Part shown: positions 21,683 through 29,332 of the stretch, one piece after another
How positions within the stretch are numbered: position 1 is the stretch's first letter
How the letters are laid out: each line of letters opens with the position of its first letter
Source: Campylobacterales bacterium
GTDB lineage: Bacteria; Campylobacterota; Campylobacteria; Campylobacterales; Sulfurimonadaceae
Length of the DNA: 64,000 nt
Direction of reading: 5' to 3'
NCBI GenBank assembly: GCA_026390165.1
Contig: JAPLGM010000004.1
Coordinates: 1 to 64,000 of the forward strand
Notes under the pieces: generated by a model
Told to the model about the DNA's origin: nothing
The model's input: the letters and a program-made list of their open reading frames with translations, nothing else
Databases searched by the model: none
Position numbers and translations under genes: made by a program

Positions 21683-22798
21683 TTGTTAACCATTAATGCT
21701 ACCGTAATTCCCCACGGAGACGAAGATCTCGGGGACAATCTCCTCTACTACGACTATAATATCGACCACCTTTTATCCCTGCAAGCCAAAGGGCTTACAA
21801 TGGAAGACGAAAGTTATGTAAGTGCCTTTAGGTCGTTCGAGGGGGAGGTGTATGAAAATTACATCTACGAAAAACTCCTCCGATTTGCGACGAATGAACC
21901 GAAAATTAAACAATTTATTATCAAAGGGCCCCACAAAAGCCGTACCCATGCCCAAAGCGATGCCCTCTCGGTGAGTTGGAAAGGGCAGATTATCTATCGT
22001 GCCCGCCACAAAGAGATCGGGGAGTTTGACGGGCTCCTTTTTACCGATAAAGAGCTCTATTTTATCGAGATGACCTTAGTGAAATCGGTAAGCAACCTCA
22101 AAAAACGGCTCCGCAAAAAACGGGCATTGCTGGAAGTATTATTTCCCCGCTATAACGTTCGCTCCATTTTAGTCCTCAACGAGGGGGCAACGGGGACAAC
22201 AGAACTTCCGCCGTATGCGAGTGTTTGGTTTACTAAGCCCTACAGTGCTGCCCATTTGTTACAGCGTATGAGTACAAACTCACAACGTGCCCCTATGATC
22301 TGCGTTGAGAGTGATAAAATTGCCCACGCCCAAGAGATCCGAACATCATCCTTTAAATATTACGCGACGTTATCATGGATGGTCCGCTCGCTTCGTAATG
22401 GAGCATCCATTGATTGGGATTTTTTCCGTAAACCTGCGACCCAGCGGTATCATGATATTTATACCAAAATCTATATCGGGTATTTGGAGAGGGAGGATTT
22501 TCATACCCTCATCCCCTCCCTCTCTTTTGAAAATTCTCAGGCCACCCGTGCGGTAGTAGCGATCGAAAAGGATCACTCAGGGGGATATTTCCTCACCTAT
22601 TTCCTCCGTCATTCGGGTAAAAAACTGGATAATGTTACGATAGTGGATGGAGTTGCAAAAGTGGCAAAAAAAGATCCTCTAGGAATCACCCTCACCGAGA
22701 TGAATCATTTGGATAAGATGATGGATTCGAGTTTTGCTTTAACCCTCGATCAGCACCGTGACATTCACACCATGTTGAAGACGATTATTCATAAATAA
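21683..22798 (+). CDS. Hypothetical protein with nuclease-like motif
   Basis: 371 residues, soluble, TTG start. I do not recognise the family. Residues around 112-130 read IGEFDGLLFTDKELYFIEMTLVKS. That arrangement (Asp, spacing, then a hydrophobic strand with Glu-x-Thr and a following Lys) recalls a degenerate PD-(D/E)XK nuclease core. A basic patch follows (NLKKRLRKKRALLEVLFPRY). The gene lies 62 bp after the response regulator and ends inside a 15-bp perfect hairpin. It may be a restriction-like or card1-like nuclease fold, but activity is unproven. Confidence 0.55.
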   Translation: MLTINATVIPHGDEDLGDNLLYYDYNIDHLLSLQAKGLTMEDESYVSAFRSFEGEVYENYIYEKLLRFATNEPKIKQFIIKGPHKSRTHAQSDALSVSWKGQIIYRARHKEIGEFDGLLFTDKELYFIEMTLVKSVSNLKKRLRKKRALLEVLFPRYNVRSILVLNEGATGTTELPPYASVWFTKPYSAAHLLQRMSTNSQRAPMICVESDKIAHAQEIRTSSFKYYATLSWMVRSLRNGASIDWDFFRKPATQRYHDIYTKIYIGYLEREDFHTLIPSLSFENSQATRAVVAIEKDHSGGYFLTYFLRHSGKKLDNVTIVDGVAKVAKKDPLGITLTEMNHLDKMMDSSFALTLDQHRDIHTMLKTIIHK

Positions 22799-22808
22799 TC
22801 GTCTTCAA
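22775..22808. terminator. Long perfect hairpin over a stop codon
   Basis: A 15-bp perfect inverted repeat (22775-22789 and 22794-22808, loop CATA) spans the TAA stop of the preceding gene. It is followed by CCCCCTTCC rather than a T-run. It probably ends or stabilises the upstream transcript before the ABC operon begins at 22886. Confidence 0.6.
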
Positions 22809-22885
22809 CCCCCTTCCTTTCATCAAAAATTCATAATTTATGTGTATCATTTGTAACAAAGAGGTATAACCCTTAAAGGATATAG

Positions 22886-23965
22886 ATGATAACTCCCCTC
22901 AAGGCGCTACGCAAAAATCGTTTTAAGACGGCACTTATTTTTATGAGTATGAGTGTCTCGATTTCGGCGATTTTTCTCATCAGCGCCATTTCGGGAGGGG
23001 TGGTGAGTATGTACAGCGCGATGCTCAAAACCGATGGAGATATTATTGTCACCCAAAAAGGGATTGCCGATACTTTTTTCAGTGACATTAACCGTTCCCA
23101 AATGGGTTCAATCGCAAAAATGGAGGGGGTCAAAGAGGTCACTGCCCTCATTTTTGGTGCCGCCCCCGTCGATCCTCTCCCTATTGTAGGAATCTATGGG
23201 GTGAGCGAGAACCGTTTTAAAAGCTATGCTCTAACGCAGGGGAGTTCTCCCCAAATGGGTGAAGTGATGTTGGGATCAAAAATCTACGAGACGCTCAAGC
23301 ATCCCAAGACAATTTTGATTTCCAAAAAGAAGTTTGTGGTGAGCGGCGTGTTTAAAAGCAAAATCGGATTTGAAGATGGCGGTGTGGTGATGAATGTGGA
23401 GGATGGAGGGGCATTGTTTCATAAAAGTGCTTCGATTTTTCTCATTACCCTCAGCGATTTGGGGAAAAGCGATTCGCTGATAAAGAAGATCAATACCCTT
23501 CTCCCTGAGGGGGAGGCGAAAACAACCGACAGTTTTATCGATTCCTACAATCAGTTTAAGATCATCAAAACCAGTTCGGATGTAATCGGAGCAATGGCGT
23601 TTTTGATGGGAATTTTGGGGATTGTGAGTATGATGAGTATGGTGGTGAATGACCGTAAAGGGGAGTTTGGAATTATGCGCTCGATTGGACTCTCATCGAG
23701 AACGATTATTTTTAAACTTTTGAGCGAAACGTTGATTATCGCCGTATTGGCGTTTGCTGTGGCGTGGGGGGTATCGCAAGGGGTGCTGGAACTGATAGAG
23801 CATGCCGATAAATTCCAAGGGTATATCAATGGAGAGATCACGTTCACCTTGTTGTGCAATGTTTTTATTGTCTCGGTGACGATGGCGCTTTTGGGGACAC
23901 TTCTCCCTGCCATTTATGCGGCGCGTATTGATCCGATGAGTTTGATTCAGCGAGGTGGTGCATGA
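22886..23965 (+). CDS. FtsX/MacB/LolC-type ABC transporter permease
   Basis: 359 residues. One N-terminal helix (about 17-40), a periplasmic MacB-like domain (about 41-225), then three C-terminal helices in the FtsX domain (VIGAMAFLMGILGIVSMMSMVVNDRKGEFGIMRSIGLSS; the coupling segment precedes the last two helices). This layout fits type VII ABC (mechanotransmission) systems, which move lipoproteins, peptides or other periplasmic cargo rather than importing solutes. AAAGGATATAG precedes the ATG. It is the first gene of an operon reaching 28243. The substrate is unknown. Confidence 0.83.
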   Translation: MITPLKALRKNRFKTALIFMSMSVSISAIFLISAISGGVVSMYSAMLKTDGDIIVTQKGIADTFFSDINRSQMGSIAKMEGVKEVTALIFGAAPVDPLPIVGIYGVSENRFKSYALTQGSSPQMGEVMLGSKIYETLKHPKTILISKKKFVVSGVFKSKIGFEDGGVVMNVEDGGALFHKSASIFLITLSDLGKSDSLIKKINTLLPEGEAKTTDSFIDSYNQFKIIKTSSDVIGAMAFLMGILGIVSMMSMVVNDRKGEFGIMRSIGLSSRTIIFKLLSETLIIAVLAFAVAWGVSQGVLELIEHADKFQGYINGEITFTLLCNVFIVSVTMALLGTLLPAIYAARIDPMSLIQRGGA

Positions 23966-24597
23966 ACATCATCGGCAGTGCGTTAGAGCACTATTACGGA
24001 CAGGAGTATATTTTACGCGGGATTGATATTGAGATTAAAGCAGGAAGTTTTACGGCGATTATCGGGGAGAGTGGGAGTGGAAAGACAACGTTGTTGTCGA
24101 TTCTCTCCACCTTATTAAACCCGACACTCGGATCGGTAACGTTTGATGGAAAAACGATTGCAGAGGTGGGGAATATTGACACGTTTCGTCGCCATAACAT
24201 CGGGTTTGTCTTTCAGTTTCATTATCTTATCTCGTATCTGACCCTCAGAGAAAACGTGGCACTGGCGGCATTGGATGAGACATTAATTGATCCGTTGATG
24301 GAGAGTTTGGGGATTGAGCGTTTGGGGGGGCGTTACAGTGATGAGGTCTCAGGTGGTGAGCGTCAACGCGCGGCGATTGCCCGCGCCCTTATCAACCGCC
24401 CCAAAATCGTTTTTGCCGATGAACCGACGGGGAATTTGGACAGTAAAAATGCCCTTGGGGTATATGAACTTTTTAAACGTTTTTCAGATGAGGGGACGGG
24501 ATTCGTCGTCGCGTCTCACGATAAAAAGCTAGCAGAGTATGCCGATACAATTATCGAAATGGAGGATGGCATTGTTAAAAAAATTTATCAACGATGA
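23962..24597 (+). CDS. LolD/MacB-type ABC transporter ATPase
   Basis: 211 residues, typical of LolD-family ATPases. Walker A is GESGSGKTTL, the Q-loop lies in VFQFHYLISYLTLRENV, the signature is VSGGERQRAAIARAL, Walker B is KIVFADEPTGNLD and the H-loop is VASHD. It overlaps the permease gene by 4 bp, so the two form one transporter. Its last codons overlap the start of the next membrane protein. Confidence 0.9.
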   Translation: MNIIGSALEHYYGQEYILRGIDIEIKAGSFTAIIGESGSGKTTLLSILSTLLNPTLGSVTFDGKTIAEVGNIDTFRRHNIGFVFQFHYLISYLTLRENVALAALDETLIDPLMESLGIERLGGRYSDEVSGGERQRAAIARALINRPKIVFADEPTGNLDSKNALGVYELFKRFSDEGTGFVVASHDKKLAEYADTIIEMEDGIVKKIYQR

Positions 24598-26116
24598 GTT
24601 ACCACTTCTCCTCTTTTGGCTCATTTTAGGACTTGTTGCAGGGCTTATTTATTCGCTGGAGTTGATTGGGGTGGATGAGTCGATGATGTTGCTCTCTCCA
24701 CAACGGGCGCGATCGCTTCATATCTCACAGATGTTGTACGGATTCTTTCCCTTGATCCTTTCGCTTCTCCCTTTTGCCCTCTTTGAAAAAGAGGGGGTAT
24801 TGACCCAAAATGCCCTTAAGAATCTGCGCCGTTATTTCGTCCTTTGGAACGTTTTTTTACTCTTTATGAGTGTTTCGATACTCTTTGGCAATATTCGAGG
24901 GTTACCGTTTTACGATTTTTCCTATCAACTCAATTTTATCCTCGCCTTTAGCGGTGTTTTTTATCTTATCGCACTCACGGATGCGTTGCGGTCGTATGAA
25001 AAACGCCCGTTATGGGTGAATGTCTCGTTATTGGTTGTGATCAGTGCCCCTATCGCCCTCATCGTCCTGATGAATCCGCAATACGGTCAGGTGGAACAAA
25101 CCTTAGTCGGTCCTCACGGGGATAACACGCTGGGGATGAGTTTCGCCCTCATTCCCCTCTATTATTTGCTCATAAAACTCAGTGCTACGAAGCCATTTAC
25201 TCCACGATGGAAAGGGCTTTGGATACTTCCACTGACCGGATACATCATCTCCCTAGTCATCCGTAACTTTTTCCATAGTTTGAGCTATAACGAGGAGTGG
25301 TTTTTTCAATATTTAACCCTCTTTTATCTCCCATTATTATGGAGATGGCTCCGTGATGCAGGGGTGACCTTTCGTACGAATGCGTATCTAATCCTTTCGA
25401 TCATAGCCTTTATGTTTGTCAATATTGAGGGGAATATCCTTTTTATCCCCGAAATACGAGTACTGATTCATCGCAACGATTTGGTTGTCGGACACGCCCA
25501 TATCGCGATGGGGCTTGGGGTAGCGTTTATGGCATTGGCACTTCTCCATCATTTTCTTCCACAGCTGTTCCGCCGTTTTTATGCCATTGTGTGGACGGGG
25601 GTGATGAGCTTAATGGCGCTGGTTCTTAGTGGTGCAGGCTTCATTGAAGCGGGGGTTATGAACAAAAATATTGATCTGTTTTTGGGATTACGGACGCTTT
25701 TGGGTGTGGTATTGCTTGTATTGGTGCTCAAAATTACCTACAATCGACTCCGGTTCCCTATTAATTCTCCCCTAAAATTCTACCATTTGAGCGGTTTTTT
25801 GAGTGATGCAGGGGGAGGATTGATCCTTATGCTTGCAGGAAACTGGCTTTTTAAATTGCTTGGATTTCATTTTAGCGGAACGTATGAGTATGTGGTATTC
25901 GCTTTTATGATCGGGACGGGGATGATTCACTGGGCAGGATTACACGGTGATGGTGAAGCCATGGGAAGCCTCAGTGCAACGATCCGTTTGATTGTCTCGG
26001 CGACGTTTGCATCGCTGTATATGGCAGGAACGTTGGACTCAATTGCCCTTCTCGTCGCCCTCTATGACGGAGGCTATGCTTTGATCTATTGGCTTATTTT
26101 ACGAGGTGGGAGGTGA
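24572..26116 (+). CDS. Heme-copper-oxidase-like membrane protein (divergent subunit I/NorB-like)
   Basis: 514 residues with about 12-14 membrane helices. A helix-II-like His is present (RSLHISQMLYGFF, residue 50). A late helix carries HRNDLVVGHAHIAMG (His308 and His310), resembling helix X of oxidase subunit I/NorB, followed by LLHHFLP. The usual helix-VI copper-B motif (W-x-x-HPE/HH) is not visible: the equivalent stretch reads EEWFFQYLTLFYLPLLW. I chose the TTG at 24572 because GGAGG sits six bases before it; ATG 24566 has no spaced ribosome site. The family assignment is moderate. It may bind heme without oxygen or NO reduction. Confidence 0.6.
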   Translation: MLKKFINDELPLLLFWLILGLVAGLIYSLELIGVDESMMLLSPQRARSLHISQMLYGFFPLILSLLPFALFEKEGVLTQNALKNLRRYFVLWNVFLLFMSVSILFGNIRGLPFYDFSYQLNFILAFSGVFYLIALTDALRSYEKRPLWVNVSLLVVISAPIALIVLMNPQYGQVEQTLVGPHGDNTLGMSFALIPLYYLLIKLSATKPFTPRWKGLWILPLTGYIISLVIRNFFHSLSYNEEWFFQYLTLFYLPLLWRWLRDAGVTFRTNAYLILSIIAFMFVNIEGNILFIPEIRVLIHRNDLVVGHAHIAMGLGVAFMALALLHHFLPQLFRRFYAIVWTGVMSLMALVLSGAGFIEAGVMNKNIDLFLGLRTLLGVVLLVLVLKITYNRLRFPINSPLKFYHLSGFLSDAGGGLILMLAGNWLFKLLGFHFSGTYEYVVFAFMIGTGMIHWAGLHGDGEAMGSLSATIRLIVSATFASLYMAGTLDSIALLVALYDGGYALIYWLILRGGR

Positions 26117-27066
26117 ATTTTTTGGTACTTGTCCTTAGCTCTCAACTGCTGTACTATCTCCTTATTGCGCAGACAGGAGTCGTCGGAGCCTTTGATTCGC
26201 ACATCTACGATCTTTATACCCTCCCCATTGGAGGCATGATCGGGACACTCTTAAGTGCGTATTGGCATCATCATACGATACAATTTGAGCTTTATTTTTT
26301 GTTTGGGATACAGATTATTATCTCATGGTTTTATCCTGACTACTCGTTGGGGATGTTATTCGTATTGGGATTTGTAGTCGGGTATACAACCCCATTATTA
26401 CTCTATTTATTTGGCTCCCAAAGTCAATTTCAACTGGCATTAGGATTGGCAATTTCGTATGTAATAGGGACGGCATTGTATACCTACCCTTTTTCGATGC
26501 GTGGAAATATTGCACTTATTTTGCCCCTTATCTCGGTGGTGGCATTACGCTTTAGCCCTTTCATTCGCATCAAGCCTTCTGCGGTGAAAAAGCTTGATTG
26601 GCGTGTAATTGCGATGATGATGGGTTGGATTTTTGTTGATTCGGCACTTTTTGAAACCTTGAGCCGTTCAGGGGATAGGGATATTTGGAGCCACTACACG
26701 CTATTGATCCTCACCTCCCATTTGCTGGGGGTATATCTGGCCTATCGGTATAAAAAAAGCTTCACCTCTCAAGGGTGGATCATCTGGATTTTATTCATTC
26801 TCAGTTATATACTGTATTATTTTCATTACTCTTTGGTTTTGGCGATTGTCTATCCACTCGTTATTTCGTACTATAATGTTTTATTATTTCGTACCCTTGT
26901 TGAGATACGGGATATTCGTCTCATTGCCCTTGCCATGGTTGGGGTGGGTTGGATCGCCACGTCGGCTGCGAATGCGGTCGCGCTAACCCATCAATTATGG
27001 GTGGTAGTGGCGGTGTTAGGTTTATTTAGTTTCGCGTATCCATTTTATTTTAGGAGAGTGTCATGA
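26113..27066 (+). CDS. Polytopic membrane protein of unknown function
   Basis: 317 residues with about ten membrane helices and short loops. Several helices carry aromatic and His residues (SAYWHHHTIQFELYFLFG; LYYFHYSLVLAIVYPL; NAVALTHQLWVVVAVLG), so heme or quinone binding is conceivable but not shown. The GTG start at 26113 overlaps the preceding stop (GTGA) and has a GAGG ribosome site six bases upstream. A TTG at 26122 is the alternative. It always needs its neighbours for interpretation: heme-copper-like protein upstream, YceI downstream. Confidence 0.6.
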   Translation: MNFLVLVLSSQLLYYLLIAQTGVVGAFDSHIYDLYTLPIGGMIGTLLSAYWHHHTIQFELYFLFGIQIIISWFYPDYSLGMLFVLGFVVGYTTPLLLYLFGSQSQFQLALGLAISYVIGTALYTYPFSMRGNIALILPLISVVALRFSPFIRIKPSAVKKLDWRVIAMMMGWIFVDSALFETLSRSGDRDIWSHYTLLILTSHLLGVYLAYRYKKSFTSQGWIIWILFILSYILYYFHYSLVLAIVYPLVISYYNVLLFRTLVEIRDIRLIALAMVGVGWIATSAANAVALTHQLWVVVAVLGLFSFAYPFYFRRVS

Positions 27067-27593
27067 TAGGTAAATTAAGTTTAGTAGCGGTTGCATTGAC
27101 CGCTTCCATGGTTGCAGGGAATCTCTCATTTGAGTCAGGGGTAATCAAAGCCCATACCGAAGTATTCGGTGACAAAACGATAGATCCAATGACTAAAAAA
27201 GCAACCTCCCATTTGTCGATGGAGTCTAACCCTTCAACGTTAAAAGGGACAATGGAGGTATCTGTTGGGGATCTTTTCAGCGATAATAAAAAGCGTGATG
27301 ATCATATGCAAGAAGTGCTTGAATCGTCTAGTTTTCCTAAAACTACCTTTGATATCAAAGAGGTTGTTGCCAAAGGGGGCGAGCATTATACCCTCAAAGG
27401 GACGATGAATCTGCATGGTGTGACGAAACCGATCAGCTTTGAGGGGACGATTGCTGATGAGAGTGGTAAAATCCATATTAAAGCAACCAGTGCATTGAAA
27501 ACGACCGATTTTGGGATCAAACCGATTACGATGATGTTTTTGACGGTACGCGATCAGGTTGATTTGAGTGTGGATGTTGTGTTAAAACGATAA
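27063..27593 (+). CDS. YceI-family periplasmic lipid-binding protein (copy 1)
   Basis: 176 residues with a signal peptide (MIGKLSLVAVALTASMVAG). The lipocalin-like YceI barrel shows FESGVIKAHTEV, the KRDDHMQEVLESSSFPKTTFDIKEV motif and the YTLKGTMNLHGVTKPISFEG signature. It ends SVDVVLKR. Family members bind long isoprenoid chains such as polyisoprenoid or ubiquinone. It overlaps the upstream membrane protein by 4 bp. It is paralogous to the gene at 27713. Confidence 0.88.
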   Translation: MIGKLSLVAVALTASMVAGNLSFESGVIKAHTEVFGDKTIDPMTKKATSHLSMESNPSTLKGTMEVSVGDLFSDNKKRDDHMQEVLESSSFPKTTFDIKEVVAKGGEHYTLKGTMNLHGVTKPISFEGTIADESGKIHIKATSALKTTDFGIKPITMMFLTVRDQVDLSVDVVLKR

Positions 27594-27681
27594 ATTTCCC
27601 CGATTCGGAGAATCTTAGCCGAAAAAGCTACCTCTTTTGTGGAGGTGAGCTTTTCAAACCACTCCAAAGGTTTGTTTCCTC
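27590..27681 (-). pseudogene. Fossil 3' end of an MBL-fold hydrolase gene left by tandem duplication
   Basis: Read on the minus strand, the sequence between the two yceI copies encodes NKPLEWFEKLTSTKEVAFSA followed by KILRIGEIYRFN. This matches the C-terminal end of the intact MBL gene at 28204-29115 (NEPLEWFERLVSEKAPPFTA then KVLRIGEIYRFN). It is only about 30 codons long, with no start. Immediately next to it on the plus strand is a copy of the 3' end of the upstream membrane gene plus the yceI ribosome site. It marks the junction of a duplication. Confidence 0.85.
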
Positions 27682-27717
27682 TAGCGTATCCATTTTATTT
27701 TAGGAGAATGTCATGAT
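27678..27717 (+). repeat. Copied yceI leader (duplicate of 27027-27068)
   Basis: About 24 bases from AGCGTATCCATTTTATTTTA through the AGGAGA ribosome site and ATG repeat, nearly exactly, the end of the gene at 26113-27066 plus the start of yceI copy 1. Here it is non-coding for the membrane protein and only supplies the ribosome site of yceI copy 2. Confidence 0.85.
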
Positions 27718-28243
27718 GTTGAAATTAAGTTTGGCAGCCGTTGCATTGACCGCTGCTGTTTTTGCAGGAAATTTGTCGTTTGAATCGGGAGCTATCAAAG
27801 CCCATACGGAAATGGCTTTGGATAAGAAGATTGATCCGGTTGCCAAGAGGGCAACATCCCATTTATCTATGGAGTCCACTCCCTTGACATTAAAAGGGTC
27901 TATTGACGTATCGATGGCCGATCTGATTAGCGATAACAAAAAACGAGATGCTGATATGCAAGAGACTCTGGAGTCTTCTTTATTTCCTAAAGCGGTATTT
28001 GAGCTCAAAGAGGTTGTGGCCAAAGGGGAAGATAATTATCTTCTCAAAGGGACGATGAATCTGCACGGCGTGACCAAACCGATCAGTTTTGAGGGGAGAA
28101 TTACCGAAGAGAGTTCACACGTGCGTATTCAAGCTTCCAGCGTTCTCAAGATGACTGATTTTGGGGTCAAACCGCCTAAATTACTATTTTTGAGCGTACG
28201 CGATCAGGTCGATTTGAGTGTTGATATTTCGTTGAAACGATAA
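27713..28243 (+). CDS. YceI-family periplasmic lipid-binding protein (copy 2)
   Basis: 176 residues, same length and layout as copy 1. Signal peptide MMLKLSLAAVALTAAVFAG, then FESGAIKAHTEM, KRDADMQETLESSLFPKAVFELKEV, YLLKGTMNLHGVTKPISFEGRI and SVDISLKR. Most residues agree with copy 1, with differences spread along the protein, so the duplication is not brand new. Its 3' end overlaps the convergent MBL gene by 40 bp, the same relation that copy 1 has with the fossil MBL fragment. Confidence 0.88.
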   Translation: MMLKLSLAAVALTAAVFAGNLSFESGAIKAHTEMALDKKIDPVAKRATSHLSMESTPLTLKGSIDVSMADLISDNKKRDADMQETLESSLFPKAVFELKEVVAKGEDNYLLKGTMNLHGVTKPISFEGRITEESSHVRIQASSVLKMTDFGVKPPKLLFLSVRDQVDLSVDISLKR

Positions 28244-29115
28244 ATCTCTCCGATTCGGAGCACTTTCGCCGTAAAAGGGGGGGCTTTTTCGCTCACTAAT
28301 CGCTCAAACCACTCCAAGGGTTCGTTCATCGGTTCATCGGAGAGGTTGAAGGTGCCGTAATGGATGGGGATAAGTGTTTTAGCCCCTAAATCGGTGCATG
28401 CCTGAATCGCTTCGGGAGGATTGGTGTGGTTGTGTTTCATGATTGCTTCGGGACGATAGGCTCCGATAGGTAAAAAGGCTTCGTCGATCTCGAATTTCTC
28501 TCCGATCTCTTTGAAATGCTCACCCATCGCGCTGTCCCCAGAGTGATAGATACCGTGATTGCTTTGTTGAATAACGTATCCTCCCCATAACGCTTTGTTG
28601 GTGTCAAAAGGGGTTCGTTTGCTCCAGTGTTTACTCGGGGTAAACGTAATCAAAAGCTCTCCGATCGCCACCTCCTCCCACCACCCCAGCTCAAAATACT
28701 TCTCACGGGAAATATGCCCCTTTAGATACCGCCAAAAACCTGCGGGGGCGACAATAATCGTCTCAGGATTCTTTCTGAGAAGTGCCAAAACGGAAGGTTT
28801 ATCAAAATGGTCGTAATGGGCATGAGTGAGTAGGATTACATCGGCGTATAATTGCTCTACGGGTATGGGGAGAGGAGTATAACGGCGGTACATGGGAATA
28901 TTCCCTACTATCGGATCAATAGCTATTGTTGTTTCTCCTAGATGTATCCACATACTTGCGTGCCCCAGCCAAAGGGCATACTCCCCTTTGGGGAGCGTAT
29001 CGTGATACTCGGTCGTCATTGGAGTGTGGAGAGGATGAGGCGGAGTGAAACGTCTTGAAAGTTGCCATTTGAGTATCGTTATCAGAGAGAGGTTAGGTGA
29101 GGTGTAGGGGTCCAT
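28204..29115 (-). CDS. MBL-fold metallo-hydrolase (UlaG/NAPE-PLD-like)
   Basis: About 303 residues from ATG 29115. The metallo-beta-lactamase core shows GHASMWIHLGETTIAIDPI, the HAHYDHFD metal motif, SKHWSKR, YHSGDSAMG and IPIHYGTFNLSDEP. The pattern fits the UlaG/NAPE-PLD branch of zinc hydrolases acting on phosphodiesters or lactones. An upstream GTG (29163) would add 16 residues but lacks a ribosome site. There is no clear signal peptide. The 3' end overlaps yceI copy 2 on the other strand. The substrate is unknown. Confidence 0.82.
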   Translation of the reverse strand: MDPYTSPNLSLITILKWQLSRRFTPPHPLHTPMTTEYHDTLPKGEYALWLGHASMWIHLGETTIAIDPIVGNIPMYRRYTPLPIPVEQLYADVILLTHAHYDHFDKPSVLALLRKNPETIIVAPAGFWRYLKGHISREKYFELGWWEEVAIGELLITFTPSKHWSKRTPFDTNKALWGGYVIQQSNHGIYHSGDSAMGEHFKEIGEKFEIDEAFLPIGAYRPEAIMKHNHTNPPEAIQACTDLGAKTLIPIHYGTFNLSDEPMNEPLEWFERLVSEKAPPFTAKVLRIGEIYRFNEISTLKST

Positions 29116-29332
29116 TAAAGAGATCTTTTTGGGAAATAATAGCACGCTTTTGGTAAAGAGCACGGGAGAATAATAGTGGGTTGCTTTATGGGCTAAAAAG
29201 GGGGTACAATCTTTAGGGCTATTTACTCGTATATTCTTGAATGGATCTCCATGTAGACCAACTATTTCTGTAAAATCTGCTACTTTTTAAGGGGTAGGTG
29301 CGTTGTTACAACAAATATTAGAGGGGCGTAGA

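Follow-up and report, generated by a model that had tools for sequence, protein, structure and literature searches.

YceI proteins of known structure commonly hold isoprenoids or ubiquinone-8 (PMC9113575). In many Gram-negative bacteria the YceI-type gene bcnA is linked or fused to the cytochrome b561 gene lcoA, and the encoded proteins form a defence system against lipid peroxyl radicals, in which LcoA has been proposed to re-reduce the BcnA-bound quinone (PMC9113575). A second group of related systems comprises the type VII ATP-binding cassette (ABC) systems, such as LolCDE-LolA and YbbAP-TesA, in which an extracted hydrophobic molecule is handed on to a partner in the periplasm (PMC12646458). 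Features of both groups come together in a gene cluster at positions 22,886 to 28,243 of a 64,000-nucleotide stretch (the window) from a Campylobacterales bacterium (assembly GCA_026390165.1, contig JAPLGM010000004.1), the near-complete 2.64-Mb genome of which has Sulfuricurvum and other Campylobacterota as its nearest named relatives. The cluster encodes a type VII ABC permease and its ATPase, a heme-copper-oxidase-like protein (HCO) lacking the copper-B histidines, a membrane protein with a predicted major facilitator superfamily (MFS) fold and a secreted YceI lipocalin, followed by a second YceI copy. We tentatively read this cluster as an envelope system that may handle a quinone or isoprenoid, with the copper-less HCO supplying electrons in place of LcoA, an interpretation drawn from sequence comparison, predicted structures and analogy to the described systems.

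The six open reading frames of the cluster were confirmed on the forward strand. Five of them follow one another in the same direction, each overlapping the next, and encode the permease (22886..23965, 359 amino acids), the ATPase (23962..24597, 211 amino acids), the HCO (24572..26116, 514 amino acids), the MFS-fold protein (26113..27066, 317 amino acids from a GTG start) and the first YceI protein (27063..27593, 176 amino acids). The overlap has the form ATGA both at the permease end (23965) and ATPase start (23962) and at the stop codon of the MFS gene and the yceI start (27063). The TTG start codon of the HCO gene at 24572 lies inside the end of the ATPase gene (24597) and is preceded by GGAGG 6 nucleotides upstream, with an alternative in-frame ATG at 24566. 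The GTG start codon at 26113 overlaps the HCO stop codon (26114-26116), and an in-frame TTG upstream at 26089 would extend the MFS-fold protein to 325 amino acids. An earlier note on this DNA had joined the whole set by overlapping starts, which holds for these five genes but not for the second yceI gene (27713..28243), since the latter follows the first after a gap of 119 bp.

The distribution of the gene set was deduced from a scan of 84,980 species by two peptide patterns, and all counts of loci given here refer to the best 80 loci; since the scan rested on these two patterns, relatives more distant than those found may exist. The loci are titled as Campylobacterota except for two generically titled metagenome-assembled genomes, L073, which is 51% identical, as are the Sulfurospirillum loci, and L124. 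The groups carrying the cluster are Sulfuricurvum, Sulfurimonas, Sulfurovum, Sulfurospirillum and the Arcobacter group. The permease, ATPase, HCO, MFS and yceI genes occur together in nearly all loci with a sufficiently long contig, including loci at about 45% HCO identity, and a split cluster was seen in one locus (L098). The five genes are kept together even where their order has changed, as in the Sulfurovum-type loci with the arrangement mfs-yceI-permease-ATPase-HCO. Among 298 genomes sampled evenly from the phylum, after removal of ten weak HCO matches (E ~1e-4, most of them in the CcoN region), the permease, the HCO and the MFS-fold protein were each present in 34 genomes, the same 34 for all three. 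The ratio of nonsynonymous to synonymous substitutions (dN/dS) against the nearest relative was 0.07-0.13 for the four genes covered, encoding permease, ATPase, HCO and YceI; for the MFS gene this comparison yielded no score. The identical presence pattern and the dN/dS values rule out chance clustering, and a mobile or plasmid origin was rejected, as the cluster was without plasmid match by DNA or protein. These data clearly indicate that the operon is real and conserved across genomes, one of the two points on which the earlier note had staked its proposal.

The HCO had been described in the earlier note as a subunit-I-like protein that has HAH but shows no evident copper-B motif, and modelling against NorB and CcoN bears this out. 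The AlphaFold model, with a predicted local distance difference test (pLDDT) score of 87.8, consists of a 12-helix subunit-I core (residues 1-397) and four extra C-terminal helices, which the fold search barely covers. It matches NorB (4xyd, Z 27.6) and CcoN (3mk7, Z 26.9) over about 380 residues, the two being tied since Z values within 1 are taken as equal, and thus has an oxidase subunit-I fold rather than that of an ordinary transporter. The Pfam COX1 match (E 2.5e-7) falls just under the gathering score, whereas that of an Arcobacter-group homolog lies above it. Ligand positions were assigned by an hhalign profile alignment with the CcoN protein of the genus itself, and residue conservation was determined over 57 sequences. 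H50 (codon 24719..24721; CcoN H64), in transmembrane helix II, and H310, in helix X, occupy the ligand positions of the low-spin heme b and H308 that of the high-spin heme (codons of H308-A-H310 at 25493..25501; CcoN H361 and H363), and all three are present in 57/57 sequences. H300 aligns with a conserved CcoN histidine, and H50, H300, H308, H310, R109 and D303 are kept in 56-57 of the 57 sequences at about 45% identity. The position of the copper-B histidine pair (H235-S236, codons 25274..25279; CcoN H273-H274) is not conserved and shows G/H/E and P/E/D/S across the family. At the position of the first copper-B histidine (CcoN H223) stands an invariant aspartate, D184 (codon 25121..25123; 57/57), an assignment that rests on the adjoining N-A-V / N-T-L block, read ungapped because of an alignment gap just before it. 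E242, beside the former copper site, is likewise invariant, as are D412, H453, R472 and D499 in the extra helices.

The HCO therefore shares with CcoN and NorB the subunit-I fold, the three heme-ligand histidines and the H-x-H motif of transmembrane helix X, but differs from them in the four extra helices, in the loss of the three copper-B histidines (one in helix VI and the pair in helix VII) or, with respect to NorB, the three histidines that form the FeB site together with a glutamate, and in that no subunit II-type partner was recognised in the cluster. Since the heme ligands H50, H308 and H310 are invariant and the copper-B positions are lost, the protein likely binds heme but is not expected to hold a heme-copper centre. 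An ordinary oxidase or NO reductase was rejected on account of the absent copper-B/FeB histidines.

The conserved YceI protein, which has a hydrophobic leader visible by eye, matches PF04264 with 74.6 bits (E 1.4e-20) against a gathering score of 23.7, and its profile matches E. coli YceI (1y0g, 1.3e-13), the H. pylori protein 3hpe and other polyisoprenoid-binding structures. By sequence it is a true but divergent member of the family. The second YceI protein, which Pfam likewise assigns to the YceI lipocalins, as the earlier note had held for both, derives from a tandem duplication (27018-27627 versus 27668-28277, 75% nucleotide identity over 612 columns) that reaches ~46 bp upstream of the start codon and so takes in the 3' end of the preceding MFS gene. 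Among the loci examined it occurs in this genome alone, yceI being single-copy in the relatives, so that the second gene is only a lineage-specific local duplicate. A canonical YceI protein is encoded elsewhere in this genome, standing alone. Two genomes of the same genus contain 306-amino-acid proteins in which an apparent rhodanese-type domain is fused to a YceI domain (L136:1510-2430 and L137:872-1792). The cluster resembles BcnA-LcoA in that a YceI lipocalin is encoded together with a multi-helix membrane protein having heme-ligand histidines, a combination for which quinone redox cycling has been proposed (PMC9113575). It differs in that the partner is a copper-less oxidase fold instead of a cytochrome b561 and that a type VII ABC pair and an MFS protein are added. 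A YceI gene linked to a PF01292 cytochrome b561 gene was not found in this genome; its only PF01292 b-type cytochrome is encoded beside hydrogenase genes and belongs to a hydrogenase operon, so that no separate LcoA was found.

The mechanotransmission ABC pair recognised in the earlier note was confirmed by the combination of an FtsX C-terminal domain (PF02687, 3e-17) and a MacB-like periplasmic core domain (PF12704, 1.7e-9) in the permease with an ATPase (PF00005, 1.5e-32) of the LolD/FtsE type, whose best NCBIfam match is LolD (1.9e-55), under the equivalog cut-off. The permease profile matches structures of MacB, LolF, LolE, YtrF and FtsX, whereas the scores stay below the LolCDE equivalog thresholds (LolC/E 55 versus 362 bits, LolD 188 versus 308 bits). 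LolCDE-LolA and YbbAP-TesA likewise combine an FtsX/MacB-type permease and a LolD-like ATPase with a periplasmic partner for lipophilic cargo (PMC12646458), but here the partner would be a YceI lipocalin, and the HCO and the MFS protein are without counterpart. The latter, which the earlier note had listed simply as another multi-helix protein, is indeed a membrane protein of the conserved set, with a predicted compact MFS fold: its AlphaFold model (pLDDT 91.6) shows 12 helices in two bundles and matches MelB (7l16) with Z 25.5 over 310 of 317 residues, and the lipid-handling proteins EfpA and MFSD2A are among its fold-search neighbours. It differs from these transporters in being just 317 amino acids long and in having no detectable sequence family, as neither a Pfam or NCBIfam family nor a PDB profile match was found. 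D176, E181, R185, R130 and H203 are invariant in this protein. Every protein of the cluster belongs to a known superfamily.

Since YceI genes are linked to cytochrome b561 genes elsewhere and a heme-retaining, copper-less oxidase fold takes the place of the b561 protein here, we propose that the ABC pair extracts a lipid, which YceI then carries, and that the HCO supplies the electrons. An isoprenoid lipid, most likely menaquinone or a related compound, would be lifted from the inner membrane and its redox state cycled, possibly in an antioxidant role. At the expense of ATP, the type VII ABC pair would pull the lipid out of the outer leaflet and hand it over to the periplasmic YceI lipocalin, as modelled on the transfer from LolCDE to LolA and from YbbAP to TesA. 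The HCO, having lost copper B and kept both heme sites, would no longer reduce O2 to water; instead, electrons from the membrane quinol pool would travel through its two hemes, paired close to the periplasmic face, and reach a YceI-bound quinone or lipid radical, which is the part proposed for LcoA next to BcnA. Moving or flipping the lipid, or a product formed from it, is the probable task of the MFS-fold protein, and a neighbouring phosphodiesterase-type hydrolase may process damaged or N-acylated lipid. The lipid-type hydrolases adjoining the cluster, NAPE-PLD-like or calcineurin-like, speak in favour of this proposal. Several points weigh against it. Heme binding by the HCO is deduced from ligand conservation and fold, the cluster YceI protein is divergent and its ligand putative, and the proposal assigns no role to the four extra helices of the HCO and no firm one to the MFS protein. 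Moreover, the invariant aspartate at the first copper-B position and the invariant E242 may point to a different metal or a catalytic function, and, since only 34 of the 298 genomes have the set, it does not answer an antioxidant need shared by the whole phylum.

The two invariant acidic residues also enter an alternative that we consider unlikely, in which the HCO is an active enzyme or detoxifier. Its five-coordinate heme, with Asp184 and Glu242 replacing the copper site, would use electrons from quinol to reduce NO, peroxide or lipid hydroperoxide, while the proteins encoded by the YceI, ABC and MFS genes would supply the lipid substrate or clear the product. The conserved high-spin heme ligand H308, the NorB-like fold and NorB as best structural match, though tied with CcoN, are consistent with such an enzyme; however, all three copper-B/FeB histidines are lost, and no gene recognised next to the cluster as a conserved neighbour encodes a subunit II-type protein or a c-type cytochrome.

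With respect to these neighbours, a secreted protein of about 150 amino acids and a lipid-type hydrolase likewise belong to the conserved set. In the window, a hydrolase of the NAPE-PLD-like metallo-beta-lactamase fold (28204..29163, reverse strand; profile match 4qn9, E 1e-39) is convergent to the cluster. It adjoins the cluster in 28 loci, on the same strand in Sulfurovum, and a calcineurin-like phosphoesterase adjoins it in 37 loci, the two never occurring both at one cluster. The gene of the cysteine-free ~150-amino-acid protein was found in 61 loci, just upstream of the permease gene or after yceI or hco, and the family also occurs outside the cluster, in 67 of the 298 genomes and with two copies in several of them. 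By eye the protein resembles a thioredoxin fold, but neither Pfam nor NCBIfam nor PDB profiles gave a match in support of this. No member of the family is encoded anywhere in the present genome; nearly all Sulfuricurvum loci have the gene, but it is absent at positions 22799-22885 of the window, and a candidate promoter or leader block (22818..22859, forward strand; 86% identity over 42 bp by blastn to the nearest relative, L046) joins straight to the permease gene here and precedes the ~150-amino-acid gene in L046. The gene has been deleted in this genome. Promoter and terminator scans gave nothing better than shuffled sequences. Further upstream, positions 21683-22798 encode a 371-amino-acid protein of unassigned family, which is conserved ahead of the cluster in 21 loci, all of them from Sulfuricurvum.

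The type VII ABC pair, the MFS fold with its neighbours EfpA and MFSD2A, the lipocalin and the lipid-type hydrolase all fit lipid traffic, and the cluster might accordingly serve to export lipids or glycolipids, with the HCO as a structural or substrate-binding subunit that has lost its redox role and kept its histidines for other reasons. We regard this as improbable, since the conservation of the six HCO residues including H50, H308 and H310 in 56-57 of 57 sequences would hardly be expected without heme. Assembly of, or heme or copper supply to, the cbb3 oxidase of this genome is a very unlikely function: the MFS fold and the CcoN-like HCO would suit it, but some relatives that lack the cluster, among them G017, G020 and G023, nevertheless have a CcoN-type match, the cluster is confined to 34 of 298 genomes, and a CcoA-like copper importer was rejected because the MFS protein has no conserved Met-xxx-Met pattern. 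A complex that senses redox state, as suggested in the earlier note, or a gas such as NO or O2 and signals to a two-component system found no direct support and is the least probable explanation. In its favour, genes for an OmpR-type regulator and a histidine kinase come after the cluster in many loci of the Arcobacter group; against it, no two-component pair is consistently linked to the cluster in Sulfuricurvum or Sulfurimonas, and sensing needs neither an ABC pump nor a lipid carrier.

Returning to the proposed quinone- or isoprenoid-handling system, neither the gene set, for which the earlier note knew no precedent, nor a copper-less oxidase subunit within it was found described in the open-access literature, outside which most subscription papers fall. 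It is possible, though rather doubtful, that a copper-stripped oxidase subunit acts as a heme conduit to lipocalin-carried quinone and is physically coupled to an ATP-driven lipid-extracting transporter, resulting in redox-coupled shuttling of lipid across the periplasm. If the proposal is true, the catalytic subunit of an oxidase would have lost its copper centre and been repurposed for lipid or quinone redox chemistry in the envelope, and YceI lipocalins would be loaded by a Lol-like energised route. The role of YceI proteins could then be addressed by direct tests in culturable strains of Sulfurospirillum and of the Arcobacter group.

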